A DNA stretch of 64,000 nucleotides, taken from Empedobacter sedimenti. Its GTDB lineage: Bacteria; Bacteroidota; Bacteroidia; Flavobacteriales; Weeksellaceae. Numbering within the stretch: the first letter of the stretch is position 1; the number at the start of each line of letters is the position of its first letter. Location: positions 62,001 through 126,000 of the forward strand of contig NZ_JASCQG010000011.1 of NCBI RefSeq assembly GCF_030005555.1, in the 5' to 3' direction. Made by a program: the position numbers and the translations under genes. The notes under the pieces were generated by a model. The model made no database searches and was not told the DNA's origin. It saw only the letters and a program-made list of their open reading frames with translations. This document shows, piece after piece, positions 38,220 to 39,813 of this stretch.

Positions 38220-38397
38220 ATTAATTATATTTTTTTAATAGGGGTTTATGTAAAAAACTTTAATAAATGATGAAGAAAGAGAATATTAGCAAGGTCTATA
38301 TAAAAAATAATTTATCTTAAAAACTAGTGTATAAGGATGTTTTAGCTTAACTCATTGATTCTAAATTTAGAATTGTTGATAACTATTTCAATAAAAG

Positions 38398-38440
38398 TGG
38401 TAAAAAATGGTAATATGTGGTAATATTTTTTCTATTTTTG
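38398..38440 (+). promoter_or_regulatory. dcw operon control region: three TGGTA boxes and a -7 box
   Basis: TGGTA occurs at 38398, 38408 and 38418, an exact 10-bp period (TGGTA-N5-TGGTA-N5-TGGTA). In E. coli, MraZ binds three TGGGN repeats with 5-nt spacers upstream of its own operon, so these are probable MraZ operators. TATTTTTG at 38433-38440 (TAnnTTTG) is the -7 box, and the repeats cover where the -33 element would be, which suits repression. The GTG start of mraZ is only 13 nt past the -7 box. Confidence 0.65.
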
Positions 38441-38453
38441 AAAAAAATCTATC

Positions 38454-38915
38454 GTGAATTCACTAATTGGTACATATGAGTGTAAGGTCGATACAAAGGG
38501 AAGACTCCCAATACCAGCGGGTTTGAAGAAACAATTGGCTGATTATTTGGAAGATGGCTTTGTGTTGAAGCGCTCTGTGTTTCAAAATTGTTTAGAGCTT
38601 CACCCGATGAAAGAGTGGGAGAAAGTGATGAATGATTTGAATAAATTGAACCGATTTGTGAAAAAAAATAACGATTTCATTCGAATTTTTACCGCAGGTG
38701 TAAAAATTGTTGAAGTTGATGCGAATGGAAGAGTGCAAATTTCAAAAGATTTAGTGAAATTTGCGGACATTAATAAAGAGGTAGTGTTAAATTCTTCTGT
38801 TAACATGATAGAGATTTGGGATAAAGATAAATACGAAGAATCTATTAATGTTGATGATATCGATTTTGCGTCGTTAGCAGAAGATGTAATGGGAAATTTA
38901 GGTGTAGATGAGTGA
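38454..38915 (+). CDS. mraZ: Division/cell wall cluster transcriptional regulator MraZ
   Basis: 153 residues from a GTG start (GTGAATTCACTAATTGG), confirmed by the conserved N-terminus SLIGTYECKVDTKGRLPIPAG. Two SpoVT/AbrB-type repeats are visible: DTKGRLPIPAGLK (about 12-24) and VDANGRVQISKDLV (about 88-101), each with the DxxGR signature. MraZ is a DNA-binding regulator of the dcw operon, expected to form ring oligomers that bind three direct repeats, which are present just upstream. Its stop overlaps rsmH by 8 nt. Confidence 0.95.
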   Translation: MNSLIGTYECKVDTKGRLPIPAGLKKQLADYLEDGFVLKRSVFQNCLELHPMKEWEKVMNDLNKLNRFVKKNNDFIRIFTAGVKIVEVDANGRVQISKDLVKFADINKEVVLNSSVNMIEIWDKDKYEESINVDDIDFASLAEDVMGNLGVDE

Positions 38916-39813
38916 ATATCATAATCCAGTATTATTAAAAGATAGTGTTGATGCGTTAATTATTAACGAATCAGGTATATATGTAGATTGTACGTTCGGG
39001 GGTGGAGGGCACTCTCGTGAAATATTAAATCGCTTAGATCAAAACGGGAAATTATTTTCGTTTGATCAAGATGTTGATGCGATTCGTAATAAAATGGACG
39101 ATTCTCGTTTCGAATTAATTGAACAGAATTTTAGATTTCTAAAAAATAATCTAAAAATTCGTGGAGTGAAGCAAGTAGATGGTGTTTTAGGTGATTTGGG
39201 AGTTTCGTCTCATCAATTTGATACACCAGAACGTGGTTTTTCAACTCGTTTTGATGGAGAATTGGATATGCGAATGAATCAGAATGCTAAGCTTTCTGCA
39301 AAGACAATTATTAACGAATACGAAGAAGAAGATTTAGCAAGAATCTTTTATGATTTTGGTGAATTACAAGGTTCATATCGTTTGGCAAGAGAAGTTGTAA
39401 AAGCAAGAGCTGATAAACAAATTGAAACAATTGATGAGTTGAAACAAATTTTTTCATTTATTCCAAAAATGAAAGAAAATAAATTTTTTGCTCAAATGTT
39501 TCAGGCGTTACGTATCGAAGTGAATGATGAAATGGCAGCGTTAAAAGATATGCTTTCGCAATGTACGGATGTCGTAAAACCAGGCGGAAGATTGGTGATT
39601 ATTTCGTATCATTCATTAGAAGATCGATTAACAAAACGATTTATGAAAAACGGAATGTTTGAGGGAGAGCCTGAACGTGATGTTTTTGGGAATTGGTCAG
39701 CACCTTTTAAGCCTTTGCAATCAAAGGTAATTGTGCCAACACAAGAAGAAATTAACGAGAATCCAAGAGCAAGAAGCGCTAAAATGCGAATTGCAGTGAG
39801 AAACGAAGATTAA
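38908..39813 (+). CDS. rsmH: 16S rRNA (cytosine(1402)-N(4))-methyltransferase RsmH
   Basis: 301 residues. N-terminal YHNPVLLKDSVDAL and the SAM-binding YVDCTFGGGGHS (GGGGHS loop) are family signatures; further motifs are DGVLGDLGVSSHQFDTPERG, RLDMRMN-like ELDMRMNQ, and ISYHSLEDRLTKRFM. It methylates C1402 of 16S rRNA. It overlaps mraZ by 8 nt and is the usual second gene of the dcw cluster. Older name mraW. Confidence 0.96.
   Translation: MSEYHNPVLLKDSVDALIINESGIYVDCTFGGGGHSREILNRLDQNGKLFSFDQDVDAIRNKMDDSRFELIEQNFRFLKNNLKIRGVKQVDGVLGDLGVSSHQFDTPERGFSTRFDGELDMRMNQNAKLSAKTIINEYEEEDLARIFYDFGELQGSYRLAREVVKARADKQIETIDELKQIFSFIPKMKENKFFAQMFQALRIEVNDEMAALKDMLSQCTDVVKPGGRLVIISYHSLEDRLTKRFMKNGMFEGEPERDVFGNWSAPFKPLQSKVIVPTQEEINENPRARSAKMRIAVRNED

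Follow-up and report, generated by a model that had tools for sequence, protein, structure and literature searches.

Results

The mraZ Promoter Region

The window, by which we mean the whole 64-kb stretch of DNA that was analyzed, contains a mraZ gene (38454..38915, plus strand) that is the first gene of the dcw cluster and codes for a protein of 153 amino acids. This protein scores 109.6 bits against TIGR00242 (cut-off 98.35), possesses both DxxxR-type motifs, one in each half of the translation (DTKGR and DANGR), and has its closest named relatives among the Empedobacter species, the match to E. brevis being 97%. Its reading frame begins with a GTG codon at 38454, a place occupied by ATG in most relatives of the genus. 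The end of mraZ is overlapped by the open reading frame of the next dcw gene (38908..39813, plus strand), which by its position we take to be rsmH/mraW, and the usual dcw reading frames are found downstream of mraZ.

The first-pass annotation had reported a TGGTA triplet with 5-nt spacers at 38398, 38408, and 38418, and we could confirm it in the sequence; the units occupy 38398-38402, 38408-38412, and 38418-38422. Read as boxes on the plus strand, these are box 1 (38395..38404; AAGTGGTAAA) with GTGG at 38397, box 2 (38405..38414; AAATGGTAAT) with ATGG at 38407, and box 3 (38415..38424; ATGTGGTAAT) with GTGG at 38417. ATGG is found in box 2 in 14 of the 14 genomes of the genus, and the array to which boxes 1 and 3 belong is likewise conserved. 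The exact TGGTA array is present as a single copy in the window; in the 3.24-Mb genome it occurs once free of mismatches, and every one of the eight other matches contains two.

A TAnnTTTG element, a motif described for the Bacteroidota, forms the predicted -7 element (TATTTTTG; 38433..38440, plus strand), and the array spans about -50 to -20 of this predicted promoter, ending before the -7 element. The overlap with the expected -33 position that had been claimed for the repeats holds geometrically, since boxes 2 and 3 coincide with the predicted -33 stretch, but this stretch of the mraZ promoter contains no TTG. A sigma-70 scan of the plus strand of the mraZ promoter returned no site, as is expected for this phylum. 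The predicted -7 element ends 13 bp 5' of the GTG start codon (38433-38456), a gap that is even shorter in many relatives of the family; judged from this predicted position, the mraZ mRNA may be nearly leaderless.

Conservation of the Array in the Bacteroidota

MraZ is encoded by 14/14 genomes of the genus, 114/120 of the family, 96/119 of the order, and 147/158 of the phylum. From a subset of all mraZ matches, 181 loci were fetched, two duplicates were removed, and the remaining 179 were sorted into genus, rest of family, rest of order, rest of class, and rest of phylum; we refer to these groups by their rank. The array was scored in the 130 bp upstream of mraZ as RTGG repeats spaced by exactly 10 bp. 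L056 was anchored within the gene and counted as is, and L130 and L172, both without the motif, were omitted from the first alignment and kept in the array counts. Counts of the promoter motif, of operators with a mixed base after the core, and of the 9-mer described below rest on loci in which 250 bp contain two or more boxes (14, 67, 46, 14, and 28 loci, respectively, from genus to phylum). Another collection contributed 80 named loci, of which 64 were new after the exclusion of 16 duplicates of the first set. All of these loci are related by descent, and the counts are to be read as non-independent events.

At least two RTGG boxes with a period of 10 bp precede mraZ at 14/14 genus, 67/67 family, 46/48 order, 14/19 class, and 27/31 phylum loci; fewer than two were found in the 130 bp at 2/48 order, 5/19 class, and 4/31 phylum loci. 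Dinucleotide shuffles yielded two boxes in 0.5-2.3% of the cases, and arrays on the reverse strand numbered 0, 0, 1, 0, and 0 from genus to phylum. Three boxes are present at 14 genus, 31 family, 38 order, 11 class, and 9 phylum loci, with 36 of the 67 family loci possessing only two RTGG boxes in register, and all 64 new named loci carry at least three. The spectrum of RTGG spacings has its peaks at 10 and 20, to which the order group adds 21 and 31. The first-pass annotation had suggested looking for conservation of the repeats upstream of mraZ in relatives, and this bore the array out: the array with its 10-bp period is kept across the phylum. It also disposes of a chance repeat, to which we assign practically no probability; the shortness of the unit speaks for chance and nothing further does, only 0.05 matches to the TGGTA array with up to two mismatches are expected in the window, and the phylum-wide conservation refutes it.

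When the 14 genus genomes were searched for RTGG-N6-RTGG-N6-RTGG, the mraZ site was recovered in each of them and was the sole site common to all. With respect to a possible MraZ regulon, none of the remaining RTGG triples in these 14 genomes is common to all 14. Eighteen of the 46 order operators (e.g., L159 and L160) contain one more GTGG, which precedes the first box by 20-22 bp.

The promoter motif keeps its place relative to the array. TAnnTTTG lies 35-36 bp from the first RTGG at 14/14 genus loci and 34-36 bp from it at 63/67 family and 25/46 order loci. Within 75 bp, it is present at 14/14 genus, 67/67 family, 36/46 order, 6/14 class, and 0/28 phylum loci, compared to 2-10% in shuffles, and 37 of the 64 further named loci carry it as well.

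The Base Following the RTGG Core

The conserved core of the repeat unit is RTGG, mostly (A)GTGG. It is followed by T in nearly all boxes of the genus; in the family and the order, G, T, and A all occur at this place. At least two boxes read TGGT at 14/14 genus, 21/67 family, 27/48 order, 8/19 class, and 3/31 phylum loci; the corresponding numbers for TGGG are 0/14, 32/67, 8/48, 3/19, and 23/31. Moreover, the following base is mixed within one and the same operator at 2/14 genus, 28/67 family, 25/46 order, 7/14 class, and 6/28 phylum loci, and one MraZ must therefore face several bases there. We had considered a code residing in the fourth base, and these mixed operators rule it out.

The repeats had initially been interpreted as the flavobacterial form of the MraZ operator, distinguished by an altered fourth base. 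A period-10 array before mraZ, conserved in the genus and the phylum, is what remains of this proposal; TGGTA as a flavobacterial form does not. Since the relatives carry G, T, or A after the core, often mixed inside one operator, there is no flavobacterial "base change." The TGGGN units of the E. coli type represent a sub-form that does not define MraZ sites at large, and this sub-form is absent from the window, where T occupies the fourth position in all three boxes.

Comparison With Known MraZ Sites

The mraZ boxes of E. coli K-12 (AGTGGGA, TGTGGGG, and AGTGGGA) lie upstream of mraZ and have the same 10-bp period. Both there and in the window, three direct repeats of the (A/T)GTGG type are located directly upstream of mraZ, with ATGG in box 2 of the window; GTGG is followed by G in the E. 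coli boxes and by T in those of the window. The two arrays also differ in their placement, as the E. coli boxes lie downstream of the -10 element according to PMC7761207, and the boxes of the window upstream of the predicted -7 element. The same paper describes a repeated GTG motif shared by E. coli, B. subtilis, and mycoplasmas, as well as an EMSA on a B. cenocepacia fragment from upstream of mraZ that carries four repeats (PMC7761207). The B. cenocepacia repeats resemble those of the window in their 7-nt units, 3-nt spacers, and period of 10, and differ in that there are four of them, placed over the start site and downstream of the -10 element (PMC7761207). For the Mollicutes, PMC8475190 reports AAAGTG(T/G) direct repeats as the MraZ site and derepression in a mraZ mutant. 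AAAGTGG fits this pattern, and there, too, direct repeats at the mraZ promoter make up a single target; the differences are the other phylum, the wall-less hosts, and the small gene cluster (PMC8475190).

The array lies directly 5' of mraZ, consists of direct repeats of a GTG(G) core with a period of 10 bp, and is accompanied by a cognate MraZ. Since GTG-type repeats are shared with E. coli, the Mollicutes, and B. subtilis, the array belongs, by its sequence, to an operator type that is already known. We consider the TGGTA repeats very probably to be a MraZ operator (probability about 0.87). The missing TTG at -33 speaks against this, as do the order, class, and phylum loci with fewer than two boxes and the family loci with only two in register. 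A ring-like oligomer, as known MraZ proteins suggest, would set neighboring subunits on the GTGG/ATGG cores, which recur every 10 bp and would thus be presented on one face of the helix. MraZ bound to its own operator would lie over the -33 stretch and just upstream of TATTTTTG; in this position, over -33 and near -7, it would be expected to obstruct RNA polymerase and thereby to repress mraZ together with the dcw genes that follow it. Occlusion of RNA polymerase combined with autorepression appears to be the simplest reading of the arrangement. Because the boxes are located upstream of the predicted -7 element here and, in E. coli and B. cenocepacia, downstream of the -10 element, MraZ may repress in another way than in these bacteria, or may act from the array as an activator instead.

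A DnaA-Box-Like 9-Mer Beside the Array

In the aligned loci, we first noticed a 9-mer of the form TTATN(A/C)ACA upstream of the array. The copy of the window is located on the minus strand (38374..38382; TGTTGATAA on the plus and TTATCAACA on the minus strand) and is conserved near the array. The published DnaA-box consensus, as given in PMC4674748, is TT(A/T)TNCACA; TTATCAACA deviates from this strict form by an A at position 6, and hence we refer to the element as DnaA-box-like. Position 6 is an A in 14/14 genus, 51/67 family, and 38/44 order copies.

TTATNMACA is present within 60 bp of the first box at 14/14 genus, 59/67 family, 40/46 order, 4/14 class, and 0/28 phylum loci, compared to 1-3% in shuffles and to 2/242 (genus), 9/774 (family), and 4/445 (order) other upstream windows of 60 bp. 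The wider pattern TTWTNMACA was chosen after TTTTCAACA had been seen in some loci, and its count is therefore partly fitted: 14/14 genus, 67/67 family, 44/46 order, 10/14 class, and 0/28 phylum loci, with 3-8% in shuffles. The pattern was then fixed, and 61 of the 64 new named loci carry it; two of the three misses read TTGTTAACA and are one letter off. In the family, flanking positions further out are near random, so the conservation of the 9-mer does not merely reflect a lack of divergence. In E. coli, the gap between cra and mraZ contains one TTWTNMACA match, located on the minus strand and away from the boxes.

The distance of the 9-mer to the first box is 12 bp at 49/67 and 2-4 bp at 18/67 family loci, and 1-2 bp at 35/44 and 12-13 bp at 7/44 order loci. 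Outside the genus, the 9-mer is on the plus strand in nearly all loci, and the distances of 2 and 12 bp are one helical turn apart. In the genus of the window, it is inverted and located 14-15 bp from the first box. Four class-level loci, all of one family, carry TGTGGAAAA (three loci) or TGTTGAAAA (L108) as this element. In the order operators with an extra GTGG, the 9-mer sits between this GTGG and the first box.

What the 9-Mer May Bind

The conserved 9-mer probably serves as a second input to the same promoter, and DnaA would be the first candidate. One reading, to which we give roughly an even chance, takes the 9-mer to be a true DnaA box, with DnaA and MraZ acting jointly on the dcw promoter, mostly from one face of the helix, and thereby linking the initiation of replication to division; this would supplement the MraZ operator and not replace it. 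The degenerate positions of the 9-mer match those of the consensus (PMC4674748). Its presence in 125/127 Flavobacteriales operators, compared to 6-8% in shuffles, and in nearly all of the further loci points in the same direction, as do the two positions on the plus strand (1-4 or 12-13 bp), one helical turn apart, and those lineages, with 9/67 family and 5/46 order operators, in which the element reads TTATCCACA itself. Other promoters provide parallels. A tandem with a 12-bp step, TTATTAACA-AGG-TTATCAACA, precedes nrdB in the genome of the window, and the same spacing is found before E. coli nrdA (TTATCCACA-AAG-TTATGCACT); one phylum-level genome (L196) carries a mixed cluster of TTATCCACA and TTATCAACA upstream of dnaA. 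In E. coli, a MraZ site overlaps a DnaA box of the mioC promoter, as stated in PMC4446571. As at nrdA and mioC, a DnaA-type 9-mer is located near a cell-cycle gene, with MraZ over the DnaA box at mioC (PMC4446571); those are other promoters, and here the 9-mer lies beside the mraZ operator and usually has A at position 6.

This A is a mismatch to the consensus in most copies, and we found no change in DnaA that explains it. The predicted oriC boxes of Elizabethkingia are TTATCCACA within one mismatch (PMC8994065), which also argues against a true DnaA box, as do the absence of the 9-mer from the 28 phylum-level operators, the occurrence of a same-strand triple cluster in only 1 of 26 genomes by the pattern used, and an oriC of the window genome that was not located.

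The recognition helix of DnaA reads DHATV in 19 of the 24 Flavobacteriales proteins that were read, and we had at first linked this to the A at position 6. A change in DnaA specificity was ruled out by the other five (L210-L213 and L215), which have DHSTV although their mraZ operators carry the 9-mer. These five family proteins have a diverged recognition helix (KDHSTVMYA vs. DHATVLHA), and their model match begins only at position 14-16.

The nrdB tandem of the window genome is located at L221:8300-8320 (contig C12, 238300-238320), about 200 bp before the gene, with its copies 12 bp apart. Thirty genomes yielded 17 NrdB matches, with 16 full-length loci; at least one TTATNMACA lies in the 420 bp considered at five of the seven loci parsed, and the exact tandem was present only in the genome of the window. 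Pairs of the 9-mer occur at several places in this genome, including the intergenic sites L222:6711-6729 and L220:6960-6980, and the regions upstream of dnaA exhibited no general enrichment. One further genome contains three TTATCCACA boxes, 11 bp apart, at L232:1501-1531, a possible oriC that lies between cysteine-synthase-like and ABC-transporter-permease-like genes (named by eye); its dnaA gene is located elsewhere.

Alternatively, the 9-mer might belong to the MraZ operator itself or be bound by another regulator, a reading that we hold as tentative and somewhat short of an even chance. It would agree with the tie of the 9-mer to the array at distances that are mostly in register, with the extra GTGG upstream of the first box in the 18 order loci, and with TGTGGAAAA in the three class-level loci, as TGTGGAAAA contains GTGG and could, by its letters, be an extra MraZ box. 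However, in L108 TGTTGAAAA takes the place of the TGTGGAAAA of its relatives, most Flavobacteriales copies lack GTGG in their complement owing to the A at position 6, and the 9-mer is inverted with a different gap in the genus of the window.

Implications for the dcw Operon of the Flavobacteriales

By title and abstract, our literature search returned no report of a DnaA box at the mraZ promoter of any flavobacterium, nor, within the same coverage, a study of MraZ or DnaA at the mraZ promoter in Bacteroidota; most subscription journals lie outside this coverage. Taken alone, the MraZ part extends a known type of operator to the Bacteroidota, with its fourth base free. As a type of operator, the array is unremarkable; what deserves testing is the DnaA-like box paired with it. 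We tentatively propose, as a possibility that we rate a little below even, that the dcw operon of the Flavobacteriales is under the control of a composite operator in which a DnaA box lies beside the site of the MraZ ring, mostly on the same face of the helix; DnaA would gate the whole cluster. The complement of a normal DnaA box includes GTGG, and in this proposal MraZ would be kept off the box by the A at position 6. The coupling of division to replication in bacteria is a long-standing question. A DnaA-type site conserved next to the MraZ operator across the order would give a testable link between replication and division.
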